DNA of 52,894 nucleotides from Deltaproteobacteria bacterium (GTDB lineage Bacteria > Myxococcota > XYA12-FULL-58-9): contig JACRCV010000074.1 in the NCBI GenBank assembly GCA_016218825.1, positions 1 through 52,894 on the forward strand, read 5' to 3'. The position numbers were made by a program, and so were the translations under genes. Shown piece after piece: positions 190-52,707 of this stretch (position 1 is its first letter; each line of letters begins with the position of its first letter). The notes under the pieces were generated by a model. The model was not told the DNA's origin, ran no database searches, and saw only the letters and a list, made by a program, of their open reading frames with translations.

Positions 190-609
190 ATGTTGAGACC
201 GGCAGCGCTTGACCGCACGACGACGACCGCGGCCCTGTCGACCGCGCGCCTGCCATTCGTCGCGCCGTCGCGCAAAGACGTGATCCGGTGGATCTTCGGC
301 AACATGCCGCTCTTGTTCGACGGCGACAAGTATCGGCGTTTCAAAGCGACGTACCAGTTCGTGTTCACCGACGTCGACGATGGGTTCGCGATCTACGCCG
401 AGTTCGACGCCGGTGCGGTGCAGGTGAAGGAAGGCCAGCACCCCAACCCCTCGGTCGTGGTGCACACCTCATCAAGCTCGTGGTTTGACGTCTCCGGGCA
501 CGTCCAGAACCCGATCTGGGCGATCGTCACCCGGCAGCTGCGGGTGCACGGCAAGGTGCCGCTCCTCGGCAAGCTGGAGCAGGTTCTCTGCAAACGCATC
601 CAGCCCTGA
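190..609 (+). CDS. Small SCP2-like (sterol carrier) lipid-binding protein
   Basis: A 139-aa protein with a single SCP2-type fold from about residue 20 to the end. It has no catalytic motif, so the expected role is binding a hydrophobic ligand in a tunnel. It is clearly similar over its length to the last ~120 residues of the PKS encoded at 7355-17092. Shared features include a K-[DE]-V-[IV]-RW start, NMP-[LM]-LFD, a YQF-[VI]-FTD block, a WFDV segment and a WAIV block. It has no signal peptide or membrane segment, so it should be cytosolic. The ATG at 190 has no Shine-Dalgarno; TAGACT at 176-181 could be a -10 box giving a nearly leaderless transcript, which is speculative. The next gene follows after 49 bp. 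The paralogy suggests that it handles the same hydrophobic polyketide. Confidence 0.8.
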   Translation: MLRPAALDRTTTTAALSTARLPFVAPSRKDVIRWIFGNMPLLFDGDKYRRFKATYQFVFTDVDDGFAIYAEFDAGAVQVKEGQHPNPSVVVHTSSSSWFDVSGHVQNPIWAIVTRQLRVHGKVPLLGKLEQVLCKRIQP

Positions 610-1132: not shown

Positions 1133-1186
1133 GAGCCGAGATCGTCTCGCGTTCGGTGCGACAGGGGCGGTCGCTGGAGGTTGATC

Positions 1187-3277
1187 GTGGTCGAGAACGA
1201 CGTGCCGCTGTTCGCGCTGTTCTTCATGCTCGGCGCCGGGGTGTTCGTCGTCGGCGTGCTGCGTAACCTGTCGGTGTGGCTGCGCGGCAAGCACTCGTGG
1301 CGCGCGAGCGCGCGGACCGTCGCCGCGACGATCTTCTCGCGCCGCATCGTCACCCTCGCCGCGGCCTTCGGGCGCGACGTCCTGTGGCAGCGACGCCTGC
1401 TCGAGCACGACAAGCTGCGCTGGCTGATGAAGACCTGCATCATCTTCGGCTACCTCGGTGTCATCACCGTCAACGAGCTCCGGGTCGCGCAGATCCCCGA
1501 GCTCGACGGCCGCTCCCACCTGCTGTTGCTGTTCTTCGCGCCCTTCGGCGACTTCTACTATCTCAAAGGCCTCGGCGCGGCGGCCGCCGCCGCTACCCTC
1601 AACACCCCGGGCGGCTATCCGTTCACGTCGACGCAGGCGCTGTTGGCGAGCCTCAACGACGTCTTCGAGGTGATGGTGATCGCCGGCTGGCTGATCGCCT
1701 TCACGCGCCGCTTCGTGAAGCGCGCCTTCCCGTTGAAGACCCTAGCCGTGGAGCACGCCGCCCTGTTTCTGTTGGGCGGCTGGTTCCTGTTCCGGCTCCT
1801 CGCCGAGGCGGTGACCATCGTCGCCTTCCAGGTGCCGAGCGAGGTCGCCCGGCATTGGACGGTGGCGGGAGCGCTGGCGACCGGACTCGGGCGGCTGCCG
1901 TTGTCGGCCTCGACCTGGGCCGCCGCGTACACCGTTCTGTGGCCGTTGTCGGCGGCGCTGCTCGGCTTTCTGTTCGGCTCGATTCCGTTCAACGCCAAGC
2001 TCTGGCACATCTTCACGACGCCGCTCGTAACCCTGATGAGCTCGGTGCCGCGCCCGAAGCTCGCCGACGTCGATCACATGCCGTCGCGGGTGCCGTTCAC
2101 CACCGGGCAGCTGATGGAGCTCGACGCCTGCGTCCGCTGCCAGGTGTGCACCGACGTCTGCCAGGTGGCCCAGGCGTCATTGGGCGGCAACGACAACCTA
2201 CGGCAGTTCCGCTCCTACGCCGACATCAACACCCGGCTGCGCACCTGGGCGCACAGCAAGAAACCACTCGGGGCCGAGGCCGAGGCCGAGCTCGGCGCCG
2301 ACGCCTACTACTGCTTCTTGTGCGGCCGCTGCCGGGAGGTCTGCCCGGCCCACATCGACACCTTCGCGCTCGGCGCGACGCTGCGCCGCAACGCCTACCT
2401 CGCCGGCTGCCAGCCGAAGCTCGCCACCGCGGTCGTCAATCAGATCGTCAAGAGCAACACCTTGCTGGCGACGCCGAAGGAGGCGCGCACCCTCTACCTC
2501 GAATACGACGACCCGTCGCGCGCCCGTCACATCAAGCCGAAGGCCGAGGTGCTCTACTACGTGGGTTGCTTCTCGTCGATCGTGCCCCGCGTCCAACACG
2601 TCCCGACCACGGTCGTGTGCCTGTTGGAGCGCGCCGGGGTCGACTTCACCGTGCTCGGCGGCGAAGAGATCTGCTGCGGCTACCCGATGGCGGTCAGCGG
2701 CGCCACCGACCAGATGCACGACTTCATGGTGCGCAACGTCGAGATGGCGAAGCGCACCGGCGCCAAGACCATCCTGTTCTCGTGCCCGACCTGCTTCAAC
2801 GTCTGGACCAAGGACTACACCGGCCTCGACGGCATCGAGCTCATCCACCACACCCAGTACTTTGCGCGCCTGATCAAGGAGGGCAAGCTCGTCCCGAGCA
2901 TCCCGGTGGCGATGCGGGTGGCCTACCACGATCCGTGCGACCTCGGGCGCAAGGCCGGGATCGTCGATGCGCCCCGCGAGCTGCTGCAGAGCATCCCCGG
3001 GCTGCAGCTCCGGGAGTTCCCGCATCACGGCAAGATGAGCTACTGCTGCGGCGGCAGCGCGATGACGGTCGCCTACAACAACGAGCTCGCCGGCGTGAAC
3101 TCGGTGTCCATCGTCATGGAGGCGGCGGCGCTCGGCATCCAGGCGATCGTCTCGTCGTGCGGCGGCTGCAACCGAACCCTGCAGATCACGATGGAGCAGG
3201 CCAAGAGCCCGATGGCGATCTTCGACGTCGCCGAGATCCTGAACATGGCGCTCGAGCCGCCCGGCCGGACGCCCTAG
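1187..3277 (+). CDS. Membrane-anchored HdrD/GlpC-type (Fe-S) oxidoreductase
   Basis: This protein has about 696 aa. The first ~290 residues carry roughly five or six hydrophobic segments resembling a NarI/DsrM-type quinone-facing membrane domain. Two 4Fe-4S motifs follow: CxxCxxCxxxC starting near residue 315, and another near 376 ending CP. Two cysteine-rich CCG domains follow, with their CC pairs near 496 and 620 and partner cysteines in CPTC and CGGC motifs, typical of heterodisulfide-reductase D-like subunits. The expected role is electron transfer between the quinone pool and a thiol, disulfide or 2-hydroxyacid-type couple; the substrate is unknown. GTG at 1187 is preferred because GGAGG at 1176-1180 sits six bases upstream, whereas TTG at 1181 directly abuts it. 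The stop shares a CTAG palindrome with the convergent kinase gene. Confidence 0.85.
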   Translation: MVENDVPLFALFFMLGAGVFVVGVLRNLSVWLRGKHSWRASARTVAATIFSRRIVTLAAAFGRDVLWQRRLLEHDKLRWLMKTCIIFGYLGVITVNELRVAQIPELDGRSHLLLLFFAPFGDFYYLKGLGAAAAAATLNTPGGYPFTSTQALLASLNDVFEVMVIAGWLIAFTRRFVKRAFPLKTLAVEHAALFLLGGWFLFRLLAEAVTIVAFQVPSEVARHWTVAGALATGLGRLPLSASTWAAAYTVLWPLSAALLGFLFGSIPFNAKLWHIFTTPLVTLMSSVPRPKLADVDHMPSRVPFTTGQLMELDACVRCQVCTDVCQVAQASLGGNDNLRQFRSYADINTRLRTWAHSKKPLGAEAEAELGADAYYCFLCGRCREVCPAHIDTFALGATLRRNAYLAGCQPKLATAVVNQIVKSNTLLATPKEARTLYLEYDDPSRARHIKPKAEVLYYVGCFSSIVPRVQHVPTTVVCLLERAGVDFTVLGGEEICCGYPMAVSGATDQMHDFMVRNVEMAKRTGAKTILFSCPTCFNVWTKDYTGLDGIELIHHTQYFARLIKEGKLVPSIPVAMRVAYHDPCDLGRKAGIVDAPRELLQSIPGLQLREFPHHGKMSYCCGGSAMTVAYNNELAGVNSVSIVMEAAALGIQAIVSSCGGCNRTLQITMEQAKSPMAIFDVAEILNMALEPPGRTP

Positions 3278-6200
3278 GGAGGGGCAGAGCCGTCTCGGCC
3301 CAGGATCTCGGCTTGGCGGCTGTGGGCGCGCGCCCGGTCTTGGTCGTCCGCAAAGAACCGGGTGAGGTAGTGGTGCAGGTCGAACTCTTGGCCGAACAGA
3401 TGACTATCGTGGGCCAGCGTCACGCCGCGCGCAATGAGCCGCTCCCCGAGCCCGCGCGAGCCTCGCGCGACGTGCCACGCTCCACGCCCCACCAGATACC
3501 AGGGGGTCGCGCAACCCATCGGGAGAGGTAGCATACCGCGCCACTCGGCGCCCCGCACCGCCTTGGCCGTCTCCGCCGTGGTCGTGCCCCTCGACCGGCG
3601 GTGGAGGGCTGCCGCCCCCATCAGCGCGCCGTCGACGACGATGCAGGGTTGACGAACGAGTGTGGCCTCGAAGAGGTGCGCAGCCTCGACGCCGAGGGTC
3701 AGCGCCTCCTCGAGTTGTCCGCCATGCATCAGAGCGATCACCAGCCGGCCCCGCGCAGTCAGTAGGTAGAGATAGTCTCCAACCTTCTCGGAAAGGTCGG
3801 CCGCCTCTCTGAGCGTCACGATAGCTCCCTCGGTGTCCTGGCGCTTCAGCTGGAGACAGCCCCGCAGGTACTTGGCCCACCCCATGCTGCGGACATCGGC
3901 GACATCGACGGACATCTGCCAGAGCTGACGCGCGAGCCGCTCGACTTCGCCAAGCTGCCCCGCTTCGAGGTAGGCTTCGCCGAGGATGGTCCACAACTGG
4001 CGCAACCTCAGCGTTTCGGCGCACCTCGCCAGCAGACGTTCGGCCTCGAGACAGGCGGCGATGTGTTCCTCGACTCGCCCCTCCACCGCGTGGCTCAGTC
4101 CGCGCAGCATCGCCTCCCACCCTCGTTCCGAAGGTGTTCCGGCCACCTCGGCAACCGCTCGGGCGCGCGCGAGGTAGGAGAACGCCAACCGCCCGAATCC
4201 GAGCGCGCTCCATACCAAGCCCTGTTGACTGAGCGACATCGTGAGCTCGGGAGATGGGCCGAGACGCGCCGCCGCGCGCAGCCCCGCGACCTGATAGAAC
4301 AACAAGCGCACGAAGTCTCTCCAGTAGAAGGTCTCGGTCAATCGTACGCAAGTGCGGGCAATGATTCGCAGACGGCCGTTGGTGGGGTTGGGCCTTCGCC
4401 GCGTCCCGAGAAACGGAAACAGCAGGCCGCCGACGGCAACCAGCATGCCCCAAATCGACCTCGCGAGGGCGGCGAGGGTGGAGCGGGGCACGGGGAAGCC
4501 CAGCGTCGCGAGCAGCTTCTCCATGAGTTGGACGGCGTCGACGATGCGGCCGTTGCGGTGCTCGACCTCCGCCTGGCGCCTGAGAAGGTCGGCTCGCTCC
4601 ATCGGACGGCGTTCGCTCTTGAGTCGCTGATTGTAGGCGTCACGTGCGGCGTCGTACTGCCCGGCTTGCAGGCACGCGTCACCGTACTTCTCGAGGAGGA
4701 ACGCCGGAGGCGTGGGCTTACCCAGCGCCGCCGACACCTCCAGGGCCTTGGCGTAGTGCTCGCACGCCTGCGAAAACGCGTAGCTGGCGAAAGCGTGGTC
4801 GCCGGCGTGAATCCAAGCGCTGTACGCCCAACGCGTCTCACCCGCCCTCGATGCGTGGTGGGCGAGGTCGGCGGCGAGCTCCGGCGCGCGGTCGCGTCGG
4901 CTCCGGATCCTTGCAGCGAGGGTTCGATGCAAAGACTTGGCCGCGTCCTTCGGCAAGACCTCGTAGATGGATTCCCAGAACCTATCGTGCGCGAAGGAGT
5001 AGTGCCCGGTCCCGCCCTCTTCTTCGAGGAAGCCGGCCTGGGTCGCCTCGTTGAGGTGGTCGAGGAGCTCCAGGTCGGAGGTGTCTACCAGGGCCCCCAG
5101 GTCGCCGAGGGTGAACTTCCGCCCACAGACCGCCGCGGCCCCGAGCGCCCGCTGGGTCCCCAGCGAGAGGCGCGCGGCACGCTGCCCAACCGCCTCCGAC
5201 ACGCTGCGAGGCATCCTGACTGCATGAGTTGTCGCGCCGGCGAGGTTCCAGCCCGCCGCCTCGTACGCCAACTGCCCGTCGGCGACCAGGAGATGAAGGG
5301 CCTGCGCGATGAACAGCGGCGTCCCCTCGCCGTGGGCCAGCAACCGCTCGGTAAAGCCACGGAGGTCGTCGTTGATGGACGTCGAGAGCATCGAGCTCAC
5401 CAACGCCGTGGCCGAATCGAGATCAAAGGGCCCGAGCTCGATCAGGCGAGCCAAGCCGTGCTCGGCGGCGGCGCCAAACAGGTCGTCGATCGCGTTGTTC
5501 GATACGCGCCGGTGAGTAAACATGAAGGCGATCGGCGCGGCGTTGCCTTCCCGGCGTGCGCGCGCGATCGCGCCGACGATGAAGGTCAGCAGATCGAGCG
5601 TGCCGGCGTCGGCCCACTGGAGATCCTCCACCAGCACCATGACAGGCGCGGCTTGACTCTTCGCGACCAGACCGTCGGCGATGCTGCGGTACAGGCGCCA
5701 TAGGTTCCCGGCGCTCTCGTCGAAGCTCACCGAGCTCTCGGCCTTGTCGCCGTAGCCCCCGCCCGAGGATGAGGGCGTCGCCGACGGGGTGCTGTCGGCT
5801 CGCGTCGTGACGGTGTCGCAAGGCGCCCGCGCCGCATGCGACGTGGAGGTGTCGAGGCCTGCGGTGCCCTCGTCCGCCGCCGACGTCGGCCCTTGCTCGC
5901 GCAGCGCGAAGGCGAGAAGACTCTCCACCGGCTCATAGGGCGCGCCGCCCTGGGCGCGACAAGTTCCCAGCAGGAGCCGCCCGTGGCGCGCGCGAAATCG
6001 GGCCAGGGCTCGCGAGACAAGTCTCGACTTGCCCACCCCGGCGTCGCCGAACACGCGCATCAACAGTGGCGAGTCGGGGCCGCGCTCGAATGCCGCCAGC
6101 TCGAAAGCGTCCATCCATTGGAGGTCCGGCTTGCGGCCGACAAACGTCGGCGCCGCGACGTACCCCCGGCGTTCGAGCGCTGGGATCTGCGCGAGGAACC

Positions 6201-7086
6201 GGGGGCCAGTGGGAACCTCGCGAAGCCACGCGGCCAACGCGTCGAAGGCGGCGGCCGCCATCGGGAAACGCGCCTGGGGCTGCTTCTCCAACAATCTCAT
6301 GATCACACGCGACACCGGCGTGGGCACCACGGTCTCGTCGAGCGGTGCCGGGAGAAGATCTCGATGGGCCGCGAGCCACGCCTGGTCGTCGTTCGTAGCC
6401 GGGGAGAACGGCATGGTCCCCGCCACCAGCTCATAGAGCACGACACCGAGCGAGTACAGGTCGCTTCGCGGGTCGGCCGCCTCGAACGCTGCCTGTTCGG
6501 GTGACATGTAGCGCGCCGAGCCGAGGAGCTGACCGACCGTGAAGGCGGCCTCGGTGTCGGCGACCTGGGCGATACCGAGGTCGGACAGTTTGACGTGGGG
6601 TGCATCGTCGCCCGCACCGACCTCGACTAGGATGTTGTGCGGCTTGACGTCGCGGTGGACGATCTGCCGCGCGTGGAGATGGTCGAGGGCGGCTAGCACC
6701 TGGCAGGCGACCTTGACGGCCGACGTCACCTCCAACCTGCCCTGCGAACGCAGGCTCCCACCGGACACATACTCCATCGAGAATAGCCAACGCCCCGCAT
6801 GGACGCCGATCTCGAAGACGCGCACGCAGTTGGGATGGGCGAGGCGCCGCGCGGCGCGGAACTCACGTTTGAAGCGGACGATCTCTGCCTCGCTCTCGTG
6901 CATCTCGTGCAACACCTTGAGCACGAGAACAGAGTCGGTCACACGGTCGAGAGCTCGGTAGACGATCCCCATGCCGCCCTCGCCGAGCTGGTCTTCGAGC
7001 ACGTATCGCCCATCGATGACCTGACCGGGCTTCCATTGGCGAGCAATGTCGCGACCCGTCGGACCGCTGAAGATCGTCTCGGTCAT
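3274..7086 (-). CDS. Ser/Thr protein kinase fused to AAA ATPase and TPR-like repeats
   Basis: This protein has about 1270 aa from ATG 7086. The kinase domain (about 25-300) has a GEGGMG glycine loop, the ATP-binding lysine K57, HRDVKPHN with catalytic D146, DLG in place of DFG, and a YMSPEQ activation-loop end, so it looks active. An AAA/STAND-type ATPase follows, with Walker A GDAGVGKS near 350 and Walker B VLVEDLQWAD near 486. From about 560 to the end it is helical and TPR-like, as in MalT-type sensor regulators. This architecture is common in myxobacteria. An in-frame GTG at 7206 would add 40 residues that do not look conserved. The gene lies downstream of and co-oriented with the two PKS genes after a 268-bp gap, so it may regulate them or be an independent neighbour. 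It converges on the Fe-S gene with a 4-bp overlap. Confidence 0.88.
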   Translation of the reverse strand: MTETIFSGPTGRDIARQWKPGQVIDGRYVLEDQLGEGGMGIVYRALDRVTDSVLVLKVLHEMHESEAEIVRFKREFRAARRLAHPNCVRVFEIGVHAGRWLFSMEYVSGGSLRSQGRLEVTSAVKVACQVLAALDHLHARQIVHRDVKPHNILVEVGAGDDAPHVKLSDLGIAQVADTEAAFTVGQLLGSARYMSPEQAAFEAADPRSDLYSLGVVLYELVAGTMPFSPATNDDQAWLAAHRDLLPAPLDETVVPTPVSRVIMRLLEKQPQARFPMAAAAFDALAAWLREVPTGPRFLAQIPALERRGYVAAPTFVGRKPDLQWMDAFELAAFERGPDSPLLMRVFGDAGVGKSRLVSRALARFRARHGRLLLGTCRAQGGAPYEPVESLLAFALREQGPTSAADEGTAGLDTSTSHAARAPCDTVTTRADSTPSATPSSSGGGYGDKAESSVSFDESAGNLWRLYRSIADGLVAKSQAAPVMVLVEDLQWADAGTLDLLTFIVGAIARARREGNAAPIAFMFTHRRVSNNAIDDLFGAAAEHGLARLIELGPFDLDSATALVSSMLSTSINDDLRGFTERLLAHGEGTPLFIAQALHLLVADGQLAYEAAGWNLAGATTHAVRMPRSVSEAVGQRAARLSLGTQRALGAAAVCGRKFTLGDLGALVDTSDLELLDHLNEATQAGFLEEEGGTGHYSFAHDRFWESIYEVLPKDAAKSLHRTLAARIRSRRDRAPELAADLAHHASRAGETRWAYSAWIHAGDHAFASYAFSQACEHYAKALEVSAALGKPTPPAFLLEKYGDACLQAGQYDAARDAYNQRLKSERRPMERADLLRRQAEVEHRNGRIVDAVQLMEKLLATLGFPVPRSTLAALARSIWGMLVAVGGLLFPFLGTRRRPNPTNGRLRIIARTCVRLTETFYWRDFVRLLFYQVAGLRAAARLGPSPELTMSLSQQGLVWSALGFGRLAFSYLARARAVAEVAGTPSERGWEAMLRGLSHAVEGRVEEHIAACLEAERLLARCAETLRLRQLWTILGEAYLEAGQLGEVERLARQLWQMSVDVADVRSMGWAKYLRGCLQLKRQDTEGAIVTLREAADLSEKVGDYLYLLTARGRLVIALMHGGQLEEALTLGVEAAHLFEATLVRQPCIVVDGALMGAAALHRRSRGTTTAETAKAVRGAEWRGMLPLPMGCATPWYLVGRGAWHVARGSRGLGERLIARGVTLAHDSHLFGQEFDLHHYLTRFFADDQDRARAHSRQAEILGRDGSAPP

Positions 7087-7224
7087 CACCAGGCGTGATC
7101 CCGTTCGAAGATAGACGCCACCCCGCTCTGAGCCCCCACAGCGGTCGATTGTTGATATCACGCAGGCAACAGAAGCCCAACGACCGTCGCACGGCACCGA
7201 CTCCACTCGAAGACTCCGTGGACC

Positions 7225-7284: not shown

Positions 7285-7356
7285 AGCACCACCGTGGCGT
7301 CGTCGCCTCGGGTGGACGGCGCACAGCGGGGCGCGGCAACTACGAACGGTGGTGCT
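7285..7356 (-). other. Inverted repeat starting in the PKS stop codon
   Basis: AGCACCACCGT (7285-7295) and ACGGTGGTGCT (7346-7356) are perfect 11-bp complements with a 50-nt loop. The right arm includes two bases of the PKS stop codon (7355-7357). In the PKS transcript the 3' end could fold into a long-loop hairpin. This may be an mRNA end structure or terminator element. Nothing else is recognised in 7087-7354. Confidence 0.4.
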
Positions 7357-10300
7357 AACGACGTGTCGTCGCCGGCTTCGCCCCCAGGACCCTGCGCAGC
7401 ATCCCCAACAGCGCCAAGTCGCCGTCGACCTTCATCTTGCCGCTGACGATCGCCCACAGCGGGTGCATGACGCCGTTGGCGACGTCGAACCAGACATCGG
7501 ATCGGGTGCGGATGACCACCGTCGGGTGCGGGCAGCACCCCTCCCCCACCTCGGCCTTGCCGCGCCCGAAGCGGATGTAGACCGGCAGACCGCCGTCGAT
7601 GTCGGTGAAGATGAATTGATAGGCAGCCTCGAACTCGGGGAAGCGCGCCCGGTCGAAGAGCATCGGCATGTTGTCGAAGACCCAGCGCACCACCTCTTTG
7701 CGCCGCGGCACGAAGGCGGGGATCGGACCGCGCGCCGGGCTCGAAGAGACCTTGGGGGCCGCGATGTCGCCCAGGCTCGCGAAGTGCGACAGGATGGGGT
7801 GCAACACCTGCGCGTCGACCGGCGGGAACGGCAACCCGACCGCCGCCAGCCCGGCGTCGGCGGCGGCGTGCTCGAAGCGAAAGTCACGGAAGAACGACTT
7901 GGGAAGCTCGGGCACGTAGAGAAAGCCGTCGTCGATCCCGGTCCGCCCGCCGACCAACAGCGCGAGGATCAGGTGCAGCCGCGGCGCCTTGGCCTTGAGC
8001 TGTTCGCCGAGCCCGAAGACCTCTTCCTTCCATTGGCTCTCCGGCACCAGCCGCAGCCTGTAACCCATGCCCTGCAACACCGCGTGCAGCCTGCGGAAGC
8101 TGAGGGGCCTCGGGTTCGCGAGCTGATAGGTCTTGCCGCTAGCGTCGGGGTGCAACGACAGCCCGACGATAGCCCGCGCCAGATAGTCGACCGCCGCGAT
8201 GTTGAGCGCCCCATCCGCCGGCATGCTGCCGAGCTGCATACAGCCGATGAGGAAGTTCTCCACGAAGATATCGGTGCGCGCCGTCGTGCCGCTGTCGCTG
8301 TCGCCGGTGATGAACCACATCCGATGGACGTTGACCGGCAGTCCTTTCTGGCGGGCGAGCGCGGCGATCTTCTCGTTGACCCATTGGGAGTGCGTATAGC
8401 CGGCGCTGACCACGTAGCTCGGATCGTCGCCGGGCCCGGCCTCCGGATACGGCTCGTCCTCGACCCGGCCGACCGGATAGACCGAGAAGCTCGAGGTCAG
8501 GTGGACCGGGATGCGCCGCGACCGGCACGACAACCGGAGCAGCTCCCGGAAGCCACCCACGGCGGTGTCGCGGAAGTACTCGTAGCCGAGCGTCCAGTTC
8601 GCCGGCATGCCGATGTGGTAGATGAGGTCGAGGCTGGCGGCGAGCTCGTCGAAGGTCGCGGCGTCGACGCCGAGCTGCGGCTGGCCGAGGTCGCCCAAGA
8701 GCGGCTTGATCCGTGACCCATAGCCGTCACGCCACAGATGGAAGTACGTCAAGTTCTCCCGTACCCGGCGCCGCGCCGCCTCGACGTCCGCGGCCCGCAC
8801 CAGGCAGAAGACCGTGGCCTTGGTGCGCTCCAAGAGCTCACGCAGCACGAAGCCCCCGACAAAGCCGGTCGCGCCGGTCAACAGCACCCGCGCCGGTTCG
8901 GTGAAGGTCGACAACGGCCGGGTCTCCACGGGGACCTCGAAGCCGAGACTGACGTCCTGCCACAGGTGCGAGTGCCGCTTCTCCTCCGTCTGCGCCCCGG
9001 GCCCGAGCAGCTTGCCGAGCTGCTCGGCCAGCGCCCCCACCGTCGGGTACGAGAGCACGAAGCTGAGCGGTAGCGCGATCCCCGAGTCGCGCTTGATCTC
9101 GGCGCGCAGCTCCATGACCGTCAGAGACGTGAGCTCGAAGCTCTCCAGCTTCAAGTCGGGATCGAGCGGCGGCGGCGAGGCTCCTCCTAGCAGGCGCACC
9201 AGCTTGTCGTAGGTGTATTCGAGCAGGACCGCGCTGCGCCGCGCCGGCGGCAGGTTCTCCAGCCGACTCTGGAGCAGACCGGCGCTCGCCGCGCCGTCGC
9301 CTTGCGCCGGGCCCTGCTCCCGTGCGAGGCGCGCGAACAGCGGCGGTGGGTCGCCGCTCGCGAGGCTCGCCAACAGCTGCCGCCAATCCACGTGGGCCAC
9401 GACCACCTGCGAGGCGCCGCTGTGCAGCACGCCGGCGAGCGCCCCGAGCGCCTCTCGCGGCGCCAAGAGCTCGAGGCCCATCTCGCGCATGCGCCGCGCC
9501 GCCTGCGCGTCGGCCGTCGCGATCCGCGCGGCCATGCCGACCTCGGCCCACGCACCCCAGTTGACCGCGACGCCCGGCAGGCCGAGCGCCCGCCGGTGGG
9601 CGGCGAGCGCGTCGACGAAGGCGTTGGCGGCCGCGTAGCTCGCCTGCCCCGGGTTGCCGAACAACGCCACCTGCGACGAAAACAGCACGAAGTGGTCCAG
9701 CGTCAAATCCGAGGTCAGCCGGTGGAGGTTCCAGGCGCCGAGGGCCTTGGGCGCGAGCACCCGTTCGAAGCGGCGCCAGTCCTGCTGCGTCAAGACGCCG
9801 TCGTCGAGCACCGCGGCCAAGTGGAAGACACCACGCAGCGGCGGCAACTCGCGGCGGATCTGATCGAGCGCGGCGGCAACCGCCTCCGGCTCGGCGACGT
9901 CGGCGCGGATCGTGAGGACCCGCGCGCCCGCGGCCTCGAGCTCCTTGACCTCACTGCGCCCGGCAGCCGCGCTCCGGCCCAGGAGAGCGAGGTGGCGCGC
10001 GCAGTGCTCGACGAGCCAGCGCGCGAGGACCAACCCGAGGCCACCCTGCCCCCCGGTCACCAGGTACGATGCGTCCGGCGCGAACGTCGCCGGCGCGCTC
10101 GCCGCGTCGCTCGTGCGCCGCGCCAGGCGGCGGACGAACGTCCCGCCGGCACGCAGCGCCAGCTCCTCCTGCGGCGCGGCGCCCGCGAGCGCGGCGACGA
10201 TGGCTTCGGCCTCGGTGGACCCGACGGTCGGCGGCAGATCGATCGTGACCGCGGCGAGCTCCGGGTGCTCCAACGCCAACACCGCCCTGAACCCGTTCAA

Positions 10301-13300
10301 GACCGCTTGCGCGGCGCTGGCGGGCAGGTCGCGGTCGCCGACGTGCGCGCCGCCACGGGTCACCAGGCAGACACCCGGTGGCCGTGCGAGCTTCGCCTGG
10401 GCCAACGCCTGCGCCAGCGCCAAGGCGCTCCCAAGGATGAGCCGCAGATCTGGAACCAGAGTCTCTGCCGACGTCTGGGCCGCCGGCGTCGCGTCGAGGC
10501 TCAACAGGTGAACGATGCGGTCGATAGGCGCGCCTTCGGCCTGCACCGCAGCGAGCAGCCGCGCCACGTCACCGGCGGCGCACGGATCGAGCCGAAAAGC
10601 GCCGGCGTCGAGCTTGGCGAACGCCTCGCCGCGCGCCGCGACCCGGCAGGTAACGCCCCGCGCCCGAAGCACATCCGCCAGCGCCGCGCCGACGCCGGTG
10701 TCGTCGGCCAGGATCAACCAGACGCCGCTGCCGAGCGCTGCCTCCGGCCGCGACCCGGCCGCCGGCTCCCAGACGACGTCGTAGGTCAGGCCGAGCGCCG
10801 GCCTTCGTGCCGCGGCCAGACGTGCGAGCACGTGCTGCGGCACGCGGCGGAAGTGTAGGCCGGCGAGCGCAATCGCCAAGTGGCCGGCGTCGTCGAACAC
10901 CTCGAGATCGCAGCTCAGCGCCTCGCCCTCCGCGGCGCCCCCATCCTGTCGCGTGACGTGACACCACATCGCGCCCGCGGGTCGGGCGTAAAACCGACAG
11001 CTCTCGACGCCCACCGGCAGGTAGGGGTCGCTCCCCGAGCCCTGCCACTCCACGAGCGGTTGCAGGGCCGCCGCCGACTGCAGCGCGCTGTCCAAGAGCG
11101 GCGGATAGAAGTGATAGCGCCCGAGCTCCGCCCGGTCGGCCTCGGGACACTCGATCCGGGTGAGGGCCTCGCCGTCGCGGCGCCAAACGTGCTGCACGCC
11201 CTTGAACGCCGCGCTGAACTCGAAGCCCTTCGCCGCGTGCGGCGCATAGAACGCCGCTTGGTCAATCTGCTCCTCGGCGGCACCTTGCAGCTCCCGCACC
11301 AGGCGCGTGGCCTCCGCAAGTCGTGCGGTCGGCAGGTCGATCCGGCGCAGCCTGCCGCGCGCGTGCAGCACCCACGCCCCGGGGTCGGCCGCCTCGGGGG
11401 CGTGGCGATGGACCGCGAACGACGCCGAGCCCGATTCGTCGGGGGTGACGAGCGTTTGCACCCGCGCGCCGCGATCCTCGGGAAGGTACAGCGCCTCGAG
11501 GAACTCGACGTCGGCGATCTCGACGGCCCCGGGCCCGAGCACCGCGCCCGCCGCCTCGAGGGCCATGTCGAGGTAACCCACCGCCGGCAGCAGGACCCCC
11601 CCGGCCACCTTGTGTCCGGCGAGCCAGGGCAAGGTTCGCGGCGTCAGGTTGTTCTCGAAGACCGGCAGCGGCGTCGTCAGGCGGTGGCCGACGAGGAGGC
11701 CGGCGCCGGGCCCCGGGGTCCGACCCTCGACAGCGGCGCGCGGCGGCGTCGCGTCCTCGTCGATCCAGTAGCGCTTGTGTTGGAACGGATAGGTCGGCAA
11801 GACCACCCGCCGCCGCGGGTAGTCACGATCAAAGCCGCTGAAGTCGAGCGGCGCACCCAAGGCGTACAAGGTCCCCAGGCTCGAGAGCAGCTGCTCCCAG
11901 TCGTCCTTGCCCTTGCGCAGACTCGGCAACCAGGCGGCGGCGTCCTCGGCGACGCACCGCCGCCCCATCCCCAAGAGCACCGGGCTCGGCCCGACCTCCA
12001 GGAACACGTCGACGCCCGCCCGAGCCGCGCACTCCATTCCCCGTTGGAAGCGGACCGCCTCCCGCACGTGCCGGCGCCAATACCCGGGCGTGCCAACCTC
12101 GTCGCCCGCGACCTCGCCGGTCACGTTCGAGATCAAAGTCAGCGCCGGCGCCGCGTAGGTCAGCGTCGCGGCATACTCCTCGAACGCCGCCAGCATCGGC
12201 TCCATCAGCGGCGAGTGAAACGCGTGTGACACCACCAGCCGTTGGGTCTTGATGCCCTGCGCCGAGAGCCCGCCCTCGACCTCGGCGACCGCCGCCTCGT
12301 CCCCCGACACCACGACGCTCTCCGGCCCGTTCACCGCCGCGATCGACACCCGGCGCGAACGCCCCGCGAGCGCCGGCGCTACCCGCGCTTCGCCGGCGAA
12401 CGCCGCCGTCATCACGCCGCCCGATGGCAGGCCCTGCATCAGCGCGGCGCGCCTCGCGATCAGGCGCAGCCCGTCGGCGAGGCTCATCACCCCCGCGACG
12501 CACGCCGCGACGTACTCGCCGACGCTGTGGCCCATGACCACCGCGGGGCGCACGCCCCACGAGCGCCACAGCTCGCCGAGCGACCACTCGAGCGCGAACA
12601 ACGCCGGCTGGGTATAGGCCGTCTGATCGATGAGCGACCGCGCGTCGCCGAACAGCACCTGGAGCAGCGGCACCTCGAGCTCGCCGGCGAGCAGCCGGGC
12701 GCACTCGTCGAGCGCCCCCCGGAACGTCGGCTGCGTCTGGTACAACGCCTGCCCCATCGCCGCGTACTGCGAGCCCTGGCCGGTGAACAGCATCGCCACC
12801 TTCGGCGCCTTGCCGCCGCGCACCACGCCCCGGACGACCCCGACCGGCTTCTGTCCGGCGGCCGCCGCGCCCAGGCGCTCGCACAGCTCCGCGCGGCTCC
12901 CTGCGACCACCGCCAAGCGCGCCCCGAAGTGGTCGCGCCCGGTGTGCGCCGTGAAGCAGACATCACCGAGCGCCTGGCGCGGCTCGGCCTCGAGGTGCCG
13001 GACATAGCGCCGCGCCGCGCGCCCGAGCGCCTCGTCGTCCTTCGCCGACAGGCACAACAGGTGCCGCGGCCGCTCCACGGCGACCCTCGCCGGTAGCCGC
13101 TCGGGCGGCTCTTCGAGGACCACGTGGGCGTTCGTCCCCTGAAAAGCGAAACCACTCACCCCGGCCAGTCGCCGGCCGGAGCCTCGCGGCCAGGGCCGCC
13201 GGCCGGCGGTCACCCCGAGGCCGAGCTCGTCGAAGGCGATGTGCGGGTTCAACGCCGACAGGTGCAAGTGCGGCGGCAGCTCCTCGCGCTCCATCGCCAG

Positions 13301-16300
13301 CATCACCTTCGTCAACGCCGCCATCCCCGCCGCGAGCTCGAGGTGACCGACGTTGGTCTTCACCGAGCCGATCGCCAGGTGCTGATCGCCGGCGCCCACC
13401 TTCCGGTAAACGGCGGCCAGCGACTGCACCTCGATCGGGTCGCCCAAGGACGTGCCGGTGCCGTGGCACTCGACGTAGCTCACCTCCTCCGGACGTACGC
13501 CCGCCGCCAAGAGCGCCCGGCGAATGACCGCTTGCTGCGCCGGCCCGTTCGGCGCGGTCAGCCCGCTCGACGCCCCGTCCTGGTTGACGGCCGAGCCGCG
13601 GACGACGGCGAGGATGTTGTCCCGATCCGCGATAGCGCGCGACAGCGGCTTGGCCAGCACCACGCCACAGCCTTCGCCGCGCACGTAGCCGTCGGCGCGG
13701 GCATCGAAGGTCTTCGCCCGACAGTCCGGGGCGAGGAAGCGCCCTTTGCAGAAGCCGATCGTGAGCTCGGGCGTCAGGATGAGGTTCACACCGCCGACAA
13801 TCGCCATCTCGCACTCGCCGGCGTGCAGGCTCTGGATCGCCAGGTGCAACGCCACCAGCGACGCCGAGCACGCGGTGTCGACGACGAAGCTCGGCCCGTG
13901 GATGCCGAGCAGATACGACAGGCGGCCGGCCGAGACGCTCATCGCGCAGCTCATCGGTGTGAAGGCGTTGATCGCCTCGAGCCCGGTGGCCTTGGTGATC
14001 CGATCGTAGTAAGGCGCGCCGCCATTGGCGATGAAGACGCCGACGTTGCGGCCGGCGAGGCCTCCGGGTGCCTGCCCGGCCCGTTCCAACGCCTCCCAGG
14101 TCACCTCGAGGAGCAGCCGCTGCTGCGGATCCATGTTCTCGGCCTCGAGCGCCGAGATCCCGAAGAACGCCGGGTCGAACTGATCGATGCCGTCCAAGAA
14201 GTAGCCCTGGCGGGTGTACATCTTGCCGGGTGCGTCGGCGTCCGCGTCATACAACCGGTCGACGTCCCAGCGCTCCGGCGGGATGTCCCGAGCCAAGTCC
14301 CGTCCGCCCTGCAACAAATCCCAGAAGATCTCCGGATCGTCGGCGCCGCCCGGAAACCGGCAAGCGACGCCCACGAGCGCCGTCGGCTCAGCGCCCGCGC
14401 TCGCCGCCCCGGGCGCGGCCACAACTCCGGGCGCCACGACCTCGACCGCCGCCGCGGCCGCGAACAGCTCGTCATCGAGGAAGCGCGCGATCGCCACGAT
14501 GCTCGGATAGTCGAAGGCCAAGGTCGCCGGCAGCTTCCGGCCGACGCTGCGCCGCAGCACGTCGCGCAACTCCACCGCCAGCAGCGAGTCCATCCCCAGG
14601 TCCATCAAGGGTCGCTGTACGTCGAGAGGCTGCGCCGGATCGTGGCCGATCGCCCTGACGACGATCTCCTTGACGTGCTCGACGAGCGACGCTCGCCGCG
14701 CCTCGCGGCTCTCGCGCTGCAGCCGCCGGACGAGCTCGGTCGGCCCTCCAGGCGTGTCGCTCGACGTCGTCTGTCGCAGGGCCGCTTCGGCGACCTCGCG
14801 CAGGATCGGCTGCTTTGCCGCCGCCGGAAACACCGAGAAGAACTTCCCCCACTCTGCCCGGAGGATGCCGATCTGCGCCCGGCCATCCGCGAGCGCCCGC
14901 GCCAACAGCATCGCGCCGCGCTCGGGGGTGATCGGGGTGACGCCCATGCGCGACCAACGGGCCTGGTCGCGCGCCCCCTGCGCCGCCGCCATGCCCACCT
15001 GCGACCACGGGTTCCAGCTCAAGCTCTGGGCGGCGAGCCCTTGGGCGCGGCGCTGCTGCACCAGGCCGTCGACGAAGGCGTTCGCCGCGGCGTAGTTGCT
15101 CTGTCCCGCCGACCCCAGCAGCGACGCCACCGAGGAGAAGCAAACAAAGTGGTCGAGCGCCAGGTCGCGCGTGCCCCGATGCAGGTTCCAGGCGCCGAGG
15201 GCCTTCGGCCCCAAGACTCCGGCGAAGCGCTCCCAGCTCTGCTCGCCCAGGACGCCGTCGTCGAGCACCCCGGCCAGGTGAAACACGCCCCGCAGGGCCG
15301 GCTGGCTCGCCGCGACTTCGCCGAAGACCCGCGCCAACTCCACGTCGCTCGCGACGTCGCCGCGGTACCACCGCACCTCGGCACCGCCGACCCGCAGCTC
15401 TCGTTGCAGCGCCTCGGCCTGTTCACGCCGACTCACGAGCGCCAAGTGCCGCGCTCCCTGCTCCACCAACCAACGACAGAGCACGCCCCCGAGGCCGCCG
15501 GCCGCTCCCGTCACCAGGTAGGTGCCGTCGCCGACGATCTTGGCCGCGGCGCCATCGGCCGCCCCTTTGACGCGCGCCAGCCGGCTCACGTAGCGTGCAG
15601 CGCCGCGCCACGCCACCTCGGTCTCCGCGTCCGCGCCGAGCATCTCGTCGGCGAGCGCCTTGCTCTCCGTCGGCTCGGCCGCCGGGTCCAAATCGACCCG
15701 CCGCAGGCCGAGCGCCGGCTCCTCGACCGCGACCGACCGAGCGAAACCCCAGGCGGCCGCGGCGACCGCGTCCACGCCGGCCTCCGCGCCGCTCACTCGC
15801 TGTCCGCCGCGAGTCACGAGCCACAAGTCACCGTGTCCCGACCGCGGCGCGAGTGCCTGGCTCAGGCACAGCAAGCCCCCGAGACCGCCTTGCAGCTCCC
15901 CGGCGAGCTGTGCGGCAGCCCCGGCCTTCGACTCCAGGTGATCGAGGCCCCACAGATACACGACGCCCCGCCATTCCGCGTCCCCGGTCTCTTGGAGCAA
16001 CCTTTCGAGGTCGGTCCGCACCTGCGGGCCGACGCGGTAGTGTCCCGGATCGAGGCGCGCGTAGCCGTCCGCCGCACGCACCTCCACGCACTCCCCACCC
16101 CGGGCCACGAGCTCGCGACCCAGGGCCGCGCCAACGCCGCCCTGGTCCGCGAGCACCAGCCATCGCCCCGTGGCCACGCCCCCGACCGGCCCGCTCCGCG
16201 CTGCGGCTCGCCACGTGACCTCGTGCAGCCAGTCGTCGAGCTCGCGCGACATCGCGCGTTTGAAGGCGCTCCTCGGGGCACGCCGCCAACGCAGGTCCCG

Positions 16301-17092
16301 GATCTCCATCACCACGTTGCCGTCGGCGCCGAGCAGGAGGACGTCGGTCGAGTAGGTGTCGTCGCCGCGCCCGCCGGCGCGCAGCCGCACGTGGGACCAG
16401 AGCTCGGCGTCGGGACGGCGGTAGAAGGTCAGGGACGCAAACGCCACCGGCAAGAACGGGCTGTCGTCGCGGCCCGGCGTGGTGACGGCCGCCATCGTCG
16501 CGGCACCGCACATCTGCAGACAGCCGTCGAGGTAGCCCGGAAAGATCTGATGCGCGGCGGCGTGCGCCGCCGCCTGGTCCGGCAGGCGGATCAGACCGAG
16601 GGCCTCGCGCTCCCCACGCCAAAGGCGCGCGATGCTGCGGAAGCTGTCGCCGAGCTCGAGGCCGAGCGCCCGCATCGTGTCGTAGTACGCCGGCACCGCG
16701 AGCTCGCTCTTGCAGGCCGCCTTCGCCGCCTCCAGAGCGTCGCGCTGCGGCGATGGTGCCGCACCACCCGACTGCACCTGAGCCCGCCCGCTCGCGTGCC
16801 GCACCCAGGCCTGGCTGTCTGCCGCGGTCGCGGCGTCCCTGCTGACGATCTCGACTCGCACGCCTCCCTGATCGTCGGGCGCGAGCACCGTCTGCAGCGT
16901 GCGCTCCTCGTCCGCGGCAATCGTCAGCGCCTGCTGCACCGCAAACTCGGCGAGCGCGATCGGACCCGGTCCCAAGACCTCGGCCGCGGCGGACAGCGCC
17001 GCGTCCACGTACCCGGTGAACGGCAACACGACCAGACCGTGCACCCGATGGTCGCCCAGCCAGGCAGGTCCGCCCAGAGCCTTGGCGCTCAT
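7355..17092 (-). CDS. Terminal type I PKS: (DH)-KR-ACP, KS-AT-DH-KR-ACP, thioester reductase, SCP2
   Basis: This protein has 3245 aa from ATG 17092, chosen because GGAGG at 17101-17105 lies eight bases upstream. It begins inside a dehydratase: catalytic H15 of HxxxGxxxxP, but the usual N-terminal strand is missing. KR (Tyr667) and ACP (Ser836) follow, completing a module whose KS-AT lie on the preceding protein. Then come KS (Cys1075), AT (GHSVGE Ser1523, HAFH, so malonyl-type), DH (His1827), KR (Tyr2486, LDD motif) and ACP (Ser2656 in ELTSL). A NAD(P)-binding thioester reductase (about 2735-3075) has TGATGFVGG and Tyr2899, but Gln2903 replaces the usual YxxxK lysine. The end, about 3120-3245, is an SCP2 domain. 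No thioesterase is present, so release should be reductive. The SCP2 domain may shield or hand over the hydrophobic product. Confidence 0.93.
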   Translation of the reverse strand: MSAKALGGPAWLGDHRVHGLVVLPFTGYVDAALSAAAEVLGPGPIALAEFAVQQALTIAADEERTLQTVLAPDDQGGVRVEIVSRDAATAADSQAWVRHASGRAQVQSGGAAPSPQRDALEAAKAACKSELAVPAYYDTMRALGLELGDSFRSIARLWRGEREALGLIRLPDQAAAHAAAHQIFPGYLDGCLQMCGAATMAAVTTPGRDDSPFLPVAFASLTFYRRPDAELWSHVRLRAGGRGDDTYSTDVLLLGADGNVVMEIRDLRWRRAPRSAFKRAMSRELDDWLHEVTWRAAARSGPVGGVATGRWLVLADQGGVGAALGRELVARGGECVEVRAADGYARLDPGHYRVGPQVRTDLERLLQETGDAEWRGVVYLWGLDHLESKAGAAAQLAGELQGGLGGLLCLSQALAPRSGHGDLWLVTRGGQRVSGAEAGVDAVAAAAWGFARSVAVEEPALGLRRVDLDPAAEPTESKALADEMLGADAETEVAWRGAARYVSRLARVKGAADGAAAKIVGDGTYLVTGAAGGLGGVLCRWLVEQGARHLALVSRREQAEALQRELRVGGAEVRWYRGDVASDVELARVFGEVAASQPALRGVFHLAGVLDDGVLGEQSWERFAGVLGPKALGAWNLHRGTRDLALDHFVCFSSVASLLGSAGQSNYAAANAFVDGLVQQRRAQGLAAQSLSWNPWSQVGMAAAQGARDQARWSRMGVTPITPERGAMLLARALADGRAQIGILRAEWGKFFSVFPAAAKQPILREVAEAALRQTTSSDTPGGPTELVRRLQRESREARRASLVEHVKEIVVRAIGHDPAQPLDVQRPLMDLGMDSLLAVELRDVLRRSVGRKLPATLAFDYPSIVAIARFLDDELFAAAAAVEVVAPGVVAAPGAASAGAEPTALVGVACRFPGGADDPEIFWDLLQGGRDLARDIPPERWDVDRLYDADADAPGKMYTRQGYFLDGIDQFDPAFFGISALEAENMDPQQRLLLEVTWEALERAGQAPGGLAGRNVGVFIANGGAPYYDRITKATGLEAINAFTPMSCAMSVSAGRLSYLLGIHGPSFVVDTACSASLVALHLAIQSLHAGECEMAIVGGVNLILTPELTIGFCKGRFLAPDCRAKTFDARADGYVRGEGCGVVLAKPLSRAIADRDNILAVVRGSAVNQDGASSGLTAPNGPAQQAVIRRALLAAGVRPEEVSYVECHGTGTSLGDPIEVQSLAAVYRKVGAGDQHLAIGSVKTNVGHLELAAGMAALTKVMLAMEREELPPHLHLSALNPHIAFDELGLGVTAGRRPWPRGSGRRLAGVSGFAFQGTNAHVVLEEPPERLPARVAVERPRHLLCLSAKDDEALGRAARRYVRHLEAEPRQALGDVCFTAHTGRDHFGARLAVVAGSRAELCERLGAAAAGQKPVGVVRGVVRGGKAPKVAMLFTGQGSQYAAMGQALYQTQPTFRGALDECARLLAGELEVPLLQVLFGDARSLIDQTAYTQPALFALEWSLGELWRSWGVRPAVVMGHSVGEYVAACVAGVMSLADGLRLIARRAALMQGLPSGGVMTAAFAGEARVAPALAGRSRRVSIAAVNGPESVVVSGDEAAVAEVEGGLSAQGIKTQRLVVSHAFHSPLMEPMLAAFEEYAATLTYAAPALTLISNVTGEVAGDEVGTPGYWRRHVREAVRFQRGMECAARAGVDVFLEVGPSPVLLGMGRRCVAEDAAAWLPSLRKGKDDWEQLLSSLGTLYALGAPLDFSGFDRDYPRRRVVLPTYPFQHKRYWIDEDATPPRAAVEGRTPGPGAGLLVGHRLTTPLPVFENNLTPRTLPWLAGHKVAGGVLLPAVGYLDMALEAAGAVLGPGAVEIADVEFLEALYLPEDRGARVQTLVTPDESGSASFAVHRHAPEAADPGAWVLHARGRLRRIDLPTARLAEATRLVRELQGAAEEQIDQAAFYAPHAAKGFEFSAAFKGVQHVWRRDGEALTRIECPEADRAELGRYHFYPPLLDSALQSAAALQPLVEWQGSGSDPYLPVGVESCRFYARPAGAMWCHVTRQDGGAAEGEALSCDLEVFDDAGHLAIALAGLHFRRVPQHVLARLAAARRPALGLTYDVVWEPAAGSRPEAALGSGVWLILADDTGVGAALADVLRARGVTCRVAARGEAFAKLDAGAFRLDPCAAGDVARLLAAVQAEGAPIDRIVHLLSLDATPAAQTSAETLVPDLRLILGSALALAQALAQAKLARPPGVCLVTRGGAHVGDRDLPASAAQAVLNGFRAVLALEHPELAAVTIDLPPTVGSTEAEAIVAALAGAAPQEELALRAGGTFVRRLARRTSDAASAPATFAPDASYLVTGGQGGLGLVLARWLVEHCARHLALLGRSAAAGRSEVKELEAAGARVLTIRADVAEPEAVAAALDQIRRELPPLRGVFHLAAVLDDGVLTQQDWRRFERVLAPKALGAWNLHRLTSDLTLDHFVLFSSQVALFGNPGQASYAAANAFVDALAAHRRALGLPGVAVNWGAWAEVGMAARIATADAQAARRMREMGLELLAPREALGALAGVLHSGASQVVVAHVDWRQLLASLASGDPPPLFARLAREQGPAQGDGAASAGLLQSRLENLPPARRSAVLLEYTYDKLVRLLGGASPPPLDPDLKLESFELTSLTVMELRAEIKRDSGIALPLSFVLSYPTVGALAEQLGKLLGPGAQTEEKRHSHLWQDVSLGFEVPVETRPLSTFTEPARVLLTGATGFVGGFVLRELLERTKATVFCLVRAADVEAARRRVRENLTYFHLWRDGYGSRIKPLLGDLGQPQLGVDAATFDELAASLDLIYHIGMPANWTLGYEYFRDTAVGGFRELLRLSCRSRRIPVHLTSSFSVYPVGRVEDEPYPEAGPGDDPSYVVSAGYTHSQWVNEKIAALARQKGLPVNVHRMWFITGDSDSGTTARTDIFVENFLIGCMQLGSMPADGALNIAAVDYLARAIVGLSLHPDASGKTYQLANPRPLSFRRLHAVLQGMGYRLRLVPESQWKEEVFGLGEQLKAKAPRLHLILALLVGGRTGIDDGFLYVPELPKSFFRDFRFEHAAADAGLAAVGLPFPPVDAQVLHPILSHFASLGDIAAPKVSSSPARGPIPAFVPRRKEVVRWVFDNMPMLFDRARFPEFEAAYQFIFTDIDGGLPVYIRFGRGKAEVGEGCCPHPTVVIRTRSDVWFDVANGVMHPLWAIVSGKMKVDGDLALLGMLRRVLGAKPATTRR

Positions 17093-17100
17093 CGCCCAAT

Positions 17101-17105
17101 CCTCC
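17101..17105 (-). promoter_or_regulatory. Shine-Dalgarno that fixes the start of the terminal PKS
   Basis: CCTCC on the + strand reads GGAGG on the - strand, eight bases before ATG 17092. It supports independent translation of the downstream PKS rather than a frameshifted continuation of the upstream gene. An in-frame TTG at 17134 lies upstream of this site and is less likely. Confidence 0.7.
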
Positions 17106-17147
17106 GGACGCGCGCCACCGAGGCGACGACCCAAAGACCGCGGCCGC

Positions 17148-20100
17148 TCATGGTTCCTCGGCCTCCGGCGCCGGCGGCGTGCGGTCGTCGGCGCGCAGCC
17201 GGGTCTCGAAGACGTGCAACGTCGAGCTCACCACTCTCTTCCCCAAGAGCGGGTTTGCCGAGACCGTGGGACCGCCGTCGGGTCCGGGCTCCCCGCGCCG
17301 CGCGTGCTGAGGCTCATCGACGTCGATCCAATAGCGCTGGTGCTGGAAGGGATAGGTCGGCAGCACGACCCGCCGCCGCTGGTAGTCCCGATCGAAGCCG
17401 TCGAAGTCGACGGCGACACCGCGGACGTAAAGGCCGCCGCAGCTCTCCAGGATCTGCTCCCAGTCATCGCGTCCCTTGCGGAGTGACGGCAGCCACGCCT
17501 TGTCGCTCGCGACCGCGCGGCGCGCCAGACCCAAGAGCACCGGCTGCGGACCGATCTCGAGGTAGACGTCGGCCCCGAGCGCCTCCGTGGCCTGCACGCC
17601 CGCCGCGAACCGCACCGTCTCCCGCAAGTGCCGCCGCCAATAGCGCGCGCTGCACACCTCGTCGCCGATCACCGCGCCGCTGAGGTTCGACACCAGCGCC
17701 ATCGTCGGCGCGTGGAAAGTGAGGGTGGCGGCGTAGGCCTCGAGCTCGTCGAGGATCGGGTCCATCAGCGACGAATGGAAGGCGTGCGAGACGTTGAGGC
17801 GCTGGGACTTAGCGCCCCGGGCGCCGAGCGCGCCGAGGGCGAGGCTGAGGTCGGCGTCGGCCCCCGAGAGCACGAAGCTGTTCGGGCCGTTCTCGGCCGC
17901 GAGCGACACCTTGGAGCCGAGCCCGGCGATGACCTCGAGGATCGTGCCGGCGTCGGCGGTGACCGCGGCCATCGCACCGCCCGGTGGCAGGCTCTGCATC
18001 AGCGCGGCTCGCTTGGCGATCAGCCGCAGGCCGTCGTTCAGACTGAGCACGCCGGCGGCGCACGCCGCGACGTACTCGCCGACGCTGTGTCCCATGACGA
18101 AGTCCGGCCGGACTCCCCATGAGCGCCACAGCTCGTAGAGCGCCCACTCGAGCGCGAACAGCGCCGGCTGCGTGTAGGCGGTTTGGTCGACGAGATCCCC
18201 CCGCTCGCCGAACAGGACCGTCAGCAGGGGCACCGCGAGCTCGGCATCGAGCACCCGCGCACACTCATCCAGGGCGCGGCGGAACGTCGGCTGGGTCTCG
18301 TACAAGCGCCTCCCCATGCCGGCGTACTGCGCGCCCTGGCCGGTGAACAGCAACACCGCCTTGGCGCTCTTGCCGGCCGCGGTCTCGCCCCGAACGCTGC
18401 CCGCGGCAGCGTCGCCCCGCGCCGCCGCCTCGAGCGCAACCGCCACCTGGCGGTGCGAGGCGCCGCTCACGGCCAATCGATGCTCGAAATGCGCCCGCCC
18501 GGTGTTTGCGGTAAAACAGACGTCGGCGAGTCGCTCCTCACGGTGGCCGCCGACGTGCGCCGCGTACCGCCGGCAGAGCTCGGCGAGCGCGTTCGGGGTG
18601 CGGGCCGACAGACACAGGAGATGCGTGGGGCGCTCGACCGGCGCCGGCGCCGCGGTTTGCTCCGGCGCCTCCTCGACCACGACGTGTGCATTCGTCCCCT
18701 GGAAGGCGAAGCCGCTCAGCCCCGCGACGCGCCGGCCGAAACCCCGCGGCCACGGCCGCGGTCCGGTGACCACCCCGAGCGCCAGCTCGTCGAACGCGAT
18801 GTGCGGGTTGATCTCCTGCAAGTGCAGGTGCGGCGGCAGCTCCTCGTGCCCCAGCGCCAACGCCACCTTGAAGAGGCCCGCCATGCCGGCGGCGAGCTCC
18901 AGGTGGCCGACGTTGGTCTTCACCGAGCCGACACCCAGGCGCCGGTCTCGGCCCCGATCGTCGTGAAACACCGCGTCCAGGGACTGGAGCTCGATGGGAT
19001 CGCCGAGCGCGGTCCCGGTGCCGTGACACTCGACGTAGCCGACCTCGTGCGGCGCCACCCCGGCCCGCGCCAGCGCCTGTCGGATCACGGCCTGTTGTGC
19101 CGGCCCGTTGGGCGCGGTCAGGCCGCTCGAAGCGCCGTCTTGGTTCACCGCCGAGCCGCGCACCACCGCCACCACCGGGTCGCCGTGCGCCAGGGCCGCT
19201 GACAGCGGCTTGAGCACCACGACGCCGCAACCCTCGCCCCGCACGTAGCCATTGGCGCGCGCGTCAAAGGTCTTGGCACGACAATCCGGAGCCAAGAAAC
19301 GTCCCTTGCAGAAGCCGATCGTCAGCTCGGGGGTCAAGAGCAGGTTGACGCCGCCGACCAGGGCCATCTCGCACTCGCCCTTCTGCAGGCTCTGCGCCGC
19401 CAGATGCAGCGCCACCAGCGACGCCGAGCACGCGGTGTCGACCACGAAGCTCGGCCCGTGGATGCCGAGCACGTACGACAGCCGGCCCGCGGCGACGCTC
19501 AGCGAGCAGCTCATCGGCGTGTACGAGTTGATGCCGTCGACGCCGACGGCGTTCATCAGCCGCTCGTAGTACGGGTTGCCGCCGTTGGCGATGAACGCCC
19601 CGACGTTGCGGCCCGCGATCCCGGTCGGGGCCTGCCCGGCGCGCTCGAGCGCTTCCCAGGTGACCTCGAGCAAGAGGCGCTGCTGCGGATCCATGTTCTC
19701 GGCCTCGAGCGGCGCGATCGCGAAGAACGCCGGGTCAAACATGTCGACGTTGTCGATGAAGTAGCCCTGGCGGGTGTACATCTTGCCGGGGACGTCGGGG
19801 TCCGAATCGTAGTAGGCGTCCAGCGACCAGCGGTCGCTCGGGACGTCGCGCGCGACGTCGGCGCCACTTCGCAACATCCGCCAGTACGCCTCGGGATCGT
19901 TGGCGGCACCTGGAAAACGGCAGGCCATGCCGATGATCGCGATCGCTTCATCCTCGAGGCGCCGCGACCCCGGGGCCGACGCCGGGGCCGCCACGACGCT
20001 CGCGGTCGTCTTGTCAGAGAAGAGCAGCCCGTCCAGGTAGCGCGCGATCGCGGCGATGCTCGGGTAGTCAAAGGCGAGGGTCGCCGGCAGCTTCTTGCCG

Positions 20101-44862: not shown

Positions 44863-52707
<7,845 letters not shown>

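Follow-up and report, generated by a model that had tools for sequence, protein, structure and literature searches.

The closest described counterparts of the assembly-line ending analysed here are the terminal reductase (R) domains of MxaA (myxalamid; structures 4u7w/4w4t) and MxcG (myxochelin), with which the thioester-reductase-like (TR) domain of our terminal PKS subunit, PKS3, shares a position after the ACP, an extended-SDR fold, an NADP motif and about 34-44% identity. Lines of the MxaA/MxcG type stop at the R domain, whereas PKS3 goes on into an SCP2 domain and has Gln in place of the catalytic Lys. SCP2 domains enclose hydrophobic cavities, and C-terminal copies recur on MFE-2-like, acyl-CoA dehydrogenase and SDR fusions and on alkylsulfatases. 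In MFE-2/17beta-HSD4, SDR-MaoC-SCP2 and ACAD-SCP2 proteins, which also occur in Myxococcota, the domain likewise stands behind enzymes that act on hydrophobic acyl chains, but these proteins serve beta-oxidation-type metabolism and contain neither a PKS nor a thioester-reductase domain; PKS3, in turn, has no MaoC domain and has a PKS module upstream.

Two further groups of SCP2 proteins are relevant. UbiJ and UbiT are SCP2 accessory factors that hold greasy intermediates beside enzymes, and UbiJ binds ubiquinone intermediates and organises a multi-enzyme complex (PMC6747719). They differ from the PKS3 domain in being separate proteins of the isoprenoid-quinone pathway, and the likeness, at 12-14% identity, is one of fold only. 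Among the closest SCP2 domains outside the contig (28-30% identity) are those at the C-termini of QueG-like 4Fe-4S proteins of ~450 aa, which are iron-sulfur fusions and, unlike PKS3, contain no PKS. This widespread family was met in five frames, and its SCP2 belongs to the subfamily nearest to the fused domain. For the TR domain, the fungal R* domains offer a comparison, since these non-redox Dieckmann cyclases of PKS-NRPSs likewise close their lines with an R-domain fold that has lost redox chemistry (PMC12304814). However, R* domains make tetramates after an NRPS module, whereas in PKS3 the changed residue is the Lys and the TR domain is preceded by PKS domains only, with no C, A or PCP domain. 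A Dieckmann role for the PKS3 domain was rejected because the NRPS module is absent.

The window, i.e. the whole stretch of DNA that was analysed, is an entire contig of 52,894 bp from a 6.5-Mb draft genome. The assembly line is encoded by three genes:

44863-52707, plus strand: PKS1, an AMP-binding loading domain and an ACP, then KS-AT-DH-KR-ACP
17148-36422, minus strand: PKS2 (6,424 aa), three KS-AT-DH-KR-ACP modules and the KS-AT of the next
7355-17134, minus strand: PKS3, the terminal PKS subunit, as an uninterrupted ORF of 3,259 aa
7355-17092, minus strand: the likelier extent of PKS3

The ORF tool called the TTG at 17134 as the start of PKS3, and the ATG at 17092, which has GGAGGA upstream, is the likelier start. 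PKS3 finishes the KS-AT module begun on PKS2 and then adds one more; Pfam profiles gave its order as the remainder of a DH-KR-ACP followed by KS-AT-DH-KR-ACP-TR-SCP2. The boundary between the PKS2 and PKS3 genes (17085-17160, minus strand) lies inside a DH domain, of which the first strand is on PKS2 and the catalytic His on PKS3. The stop codon of PKS2 overlaps the ATG (as ATGA) of an ORF of ~20 codons, and the TGA of that ORF overlaps the PKS3 ATG at 17092. Either the DH is naturally split, with translation of its two parts coupled, or the assembly contains a frameshift here.

The KS Cys/His residues, the GHSVG and HAFHS motifs of malonyl-type AT domains and the DH and KR motifs are intact throughout the six modules. 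As every module is KS-AT-DH-KR-ACP with intact active-site motifs, a polyene is the expected product, in agreement with the original prediction made from the DNA alone, and established PKS logic leads us to expect that the chain on the terminal ACP is a fully conjugated hexaene. The features at the C-terminal end of PKS3, in the order in which they are translated, are:

9005-9217, minus strand: terminal ACP, with the attachment Ser kept and LTSL replacing the usual DSL
7745-8902, minus strand: TR domain, with the MxaA R-domain fold and the NADP motif TGATGFVGG
8489-8491, minus strand: Ser (residue 2882) at the triad Ser/Thr position, kept
8396-8398, minus strand: triad Tyr (residue 2913), kept
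8384-8386, minus strand: Gln codon CAA (residue 2917) at the catalytic-Lys position of YxxxK
7703-7745, minus strand: TR-SCP2 linker
7358-7702, minus strand: fused SCP2 domain, with the Pfam core at 7385-7633 and the modelled fold beginning near 7702

The original prediction placed an SCP2 domain at the end of the terminal PKS (7355-7740) and proposed a profile search for it. This search assigned PF02036 to residues 3168-3250, within the last ~115 residues that make up the domain, with a score of 39.9 bits (E 5.5e-10; cut-off 21.3) when the last 125 aa were scored and of 33.5 bits when the whole PKS3 protein was used. An AlphaFold model of the tail (AF2, built with 20 SCP2 sequences) had a pLDDT of 92.1 and a pTM of 0.81, and showed the SCP2 topology of alpha, beta sheet, alpha, beta and C-terminal helix. 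The hydrophobic core positions of the fold are retained. Foldseek matched the model to SCP2 and SCP2-like domains with probability 1.00, including 3cnu, 1ikt, UbiJ and the C-domains of alkylsulfatases (2yhe, rmsd 1.4 over 99 columns). A joint model of TR and SCP2 was of low confidence across its SCP2 half. The profile score, the modelled fold and the structural matches together bear out both the domain and its predicted coordinates.

The tail is in frame with the upstream TR domain, with no intervening stop or frameshift. At the three codon positions the GC values are.64/.46/.91 for the SCP2 part, close to the.67/.46/.92 of the reductase part, and the tail is therefore coding; the possibility that it is a GC-rich read-through of a stop codon was ruled out by this codon-position bias together with homology.

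A second SCP2 gene, which stands alone, is found 7 kb away, on the far side of a kinase gene:

190-609, plus strand: stand-alone SCP2 protein of 139 aa (PF02036, 31.4 bits)

This paralogue is 48% identical to the fused domain over 113 aa and is its closest relative in everything searched, the next best among 195 Myxococcota genomes being 30% identical. The genome contains nine SCP2 matches, and the stand-alone gene is the only one besides the fused domain on this contig. Two SCP2s of one subfamily on a contig, as here, occurred in no other genome searched, and a scan of 84,980 GTDB genomes with both copies gave 59 pattern matches with no true relative among them, which points either to a rare subfamily or to patterns that were drawn too narrowly. 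Downstream of the stand-alone gene is a membrane iron-sulfur protein of 698 aa (1181-3277, plus strand) with Fer4 and two CCG domains, resembling TfrB/LdhH/GlpC. Between the two SCP2 loci lies a Ser/Thr kinase - AAA ATPase - TPR protein (3274-7206, minus strand), which is a possible regulator of the cluster.

We looked for the same ending elsewhere from both sides of the fusion. In 195 Myxococcota genomes, 63 of them with strong matches, no TR match continued through the SCP2 part, and none of the best 80 TR loci of GTDB (84,980 genomes) carried an SCP2 extension. Almost all of the compared relatives (95 of 99) end at the TR domain. The remaining four have other tails. By eye, two of these resemble a GNAT acetyltransferase and one a hydratase-like domain, and the last has no assigned type; the two GNAT-like tails are on TR domains of Salinispora and represent another unusual fusion at this position. 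An SCP2 profile made from four sequences was run against samples of 193, 292, 246, 151, 299 and 149 genomes from six phyla and against 34 TR-bearing genomes. Among the matches listed for these ~1,300 genomes, with a limited number of candidates scored per genome, no SCP2 stood behind a PKS; the partners found instead were MFE-2-like, SDR, acyl-CoA dehydrogenase, flavodoxin and 4Fe-4S proteins, and the other long frames that were read contained no PKS sequence.

Several long SCP2 frames were considered as PKS fusions and rejected. Five from Myxococcota were SDR, MaoC and SCP2 enzymes and another was a 4Fe-4S-SCP2 protein, while a frame of 1,186 aa from the same phylum read through a stop, its upstream part having the look of out-of-frame noise. 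Two frames from a cyanobacterium-centred sample were ACAD-SCP2 proteins, one from a deltaproteobacterial MAG was SDR-SCP2, and one from an Anaerolineales MAG had glycosidase-like sequence upstream, as judged by eye. Plasmid and phage collections gave no match, and no close homologue of the whole cluster was found in the genomes searched. The literature searched, with most subscription journals outside its scope, contained no account of a PKS that carries an SCP2 domain. The claim that this ending is new among well-described PKSs therefore agrees with both the literature and the genome searches: SCP2 tails on acyl-chain enzymes were known already, and on a PKS terminus the domain is unrecorded in the data searched.

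The TR domain itself is readily recognised (TIGR01746, 226.8 bits against a cut-off of 213.35; PF07993, E 1.2e-49). The nearest solved structure to its model is the MxaA R domain, with a TM score of 0.87-0.89, and the invariant positions of the Rossmann motif TGxxGFxG are kept. The triad is incomplete: where YxxSK is usual the domain has YTHSQ, i.e. Tyr and Ser remain and the catalytic Lys is Gln. We aligned the domain with 99 relatives, drawn partly from Myxococcota and partly from the 80 best loci among the 84,980 genomes. In these 100 sequences Tyr is conserved in all, Lys is kept in all 99 relatives, and Gln occurs in PKS3 only. One of the scan patterns accepted either Lys or Gln at this site, so the sampling was not biased against Gln. 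Of the 61 positions with 90% conservation or more, the PKS3 domain departs at 14, the highest value of the 100 sequences (median 2); with the threshold at 95%, 4 of 39 differ, which is the joint highest count. The change from Lys to Gln is one codon of a draft assembly, where a consensus error could have produced it; the other departures within the same domain argue against that.

Mutation of the corresponding residues has been studied in carboxylic acid reductases (CARs), where Y844A and K848A abolish the activity of NcCAR and K867A abolishes that of AtCAR (PMC5826065). Given that the Lys is lost, that 99 of 99 relatives keep it and that Lys-to-Ala inactivates two CARs, release of an aldehyde by reduction is doubtful, and from its sequence the PKS3 domain is unlikely to carry out normal reductive release. 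Gln differs from Ala at this site and some residual reductase activity is possible. In the original prediction the SCP2 domain stood behind the release domain, which presupposes a working reductase that frees an aldehyde; the position was correct, while the working reductase is put in question by the lost Lys. With the Ser-Tyr-Lys triad broken, SCP2 may share in the release or hand-off of the chain rather than merely receive a freed product.

Other genes of the cluster could contribute to this step:

39197-41326, plus strand: 709-aa protein with HIIFDG (HxxxDG) and no Pfam or PDB match at threshold
43579-44568, plus strand: LnmK-like hot-dog protein (TIGR04098, 76.1 bits, below the cut-off of 100)
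36483-37427, plus strand: another probable hot-dog protein (4HBT at E 0.12 only)
37848-39206, minus strand: class-V PLP enzyme of the cysteine-desulfurase superfamily, within the cluster

The HxxxDG motif is typical of condensation and CoA-dependent acyltransferase enzymes. It was recognised by eye in the 709-aa protein, which is a candidate trans-acting release or tailoring enzyme. The two hot-dog proteins are possible starter-unit or release enzymes, and the PLP enzyme is a possible C-S lyase or aminating tailoring enzyme. Because only 190 bp of the contig precede the stand-alone SCP2 gene and its other end is at 52,894 bp, further release enzymes may lie outside view.

The reading that we favour, though tentatively, is that the line ends in a unit for holding and handing off the chain, made up of an altered or pseudo-reductase and SCP2, with a partner in trans probably completing release. 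On this model the six reducing and dehydrating modules would assemble a conjugated polyene from malonate, leaving it on the terminal ACP. The TR fold would probably still bind NADP(H) and the ACP-bound chain but, without the Lys, would reduce the thioester poorly or never. The tethered SCP2 would take the hydrophobic polyene tail into its cavity, which would keep the chain in solution, shield it and offer it either to TR, for a slow or altered release, or to a trans-acting partner; the HxxxDG protein or a hot-dog protein would be candidates for this partner. The free SCP2 protein would then carry the same hydrophobic product or intermediate onward. By analogy with UbiJ, whose SCP2 cavity holds ubiquinone intermediates, the fused domain would most likely serve to hold the nascent hexaene where the line ends. 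As the Lys is missing, we prefer a scheme in which the chain passes to a trans-acting partner and the free SCP2 protein serves as another carrier. The fullest form of this model, in which a non-reducing TR-like domain and the tethered carrier hand the polyene thioester to a trans-acting releaser and the free SCP2 completes a carrier relay, is possible but doubtful.

An active TR domain, in which Gln or water replaces the Lys and SCP2 receives the released aldehyde, is also rather unlikely. The retained NADP motif, Tyr and Ser, the match to the MxaA R domain and the TIGR01746 score above cut-off are all consistent with activity, and the PLP enzyme could use an aldehyde; the invariance of the Lys among the relatives, the inactive Lys-to-Ala mutants of the CARs and the departures from 14 of 61 conserved positions all count against it. 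The fused SCP2 might instead act mainly as a platform for docking or dimerisation, on which the free SCP2 and tailoring enzymes assemble around the end of the line, with lipid binding secondary. This has a precedent in UbiJ, which structures a multi-enzyme complex as well as binding intermediates (PMC6747719), and one cluster does contain two SCP2s of the same subfamily; we nevertheless consider it improbable, as the hydrophobic core positions are kept as they would be in a lipid binder. It is more improbable still that the tail has no function and arose when a duplicated copy of the nearby SCP2 gene was by chance fused to a decaying release domain. The lost Lys, the occurrence of the fusion in a single one of the genomes searched and the location of its nearest relative in a neighbouring gene would fit such an origin, but the SCP2 part has a strong codon bias, an intact fold, 48% identity to its paralogue and no stop or frameshift, and catalytic motifs are kept in all upstream modules.

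To our knowledge, it is poorly understood how long conjugated polyenes stay soluble and unreacted on assembly lines at the release step. A lipid-carrier domain within the last subunit, beside a reductase that lacks its Lys, provides a concrete and testable case. It also cautions that the product can be predicted wrongly from domain annotation alone (i.e. 'terminal TR, so aldehyde product'). Since an SCP2 pocket sits behind a release domain without the catalytic Lys, the usual picture of the release of this chain probably needs revising. If the fullest form of the model is true, a dedicated holder of the hydrophobic chain would separate the release step from the assembly line, and if SCP2 does hold the chain, it would be a portable part for the handling of greasy polyketides.
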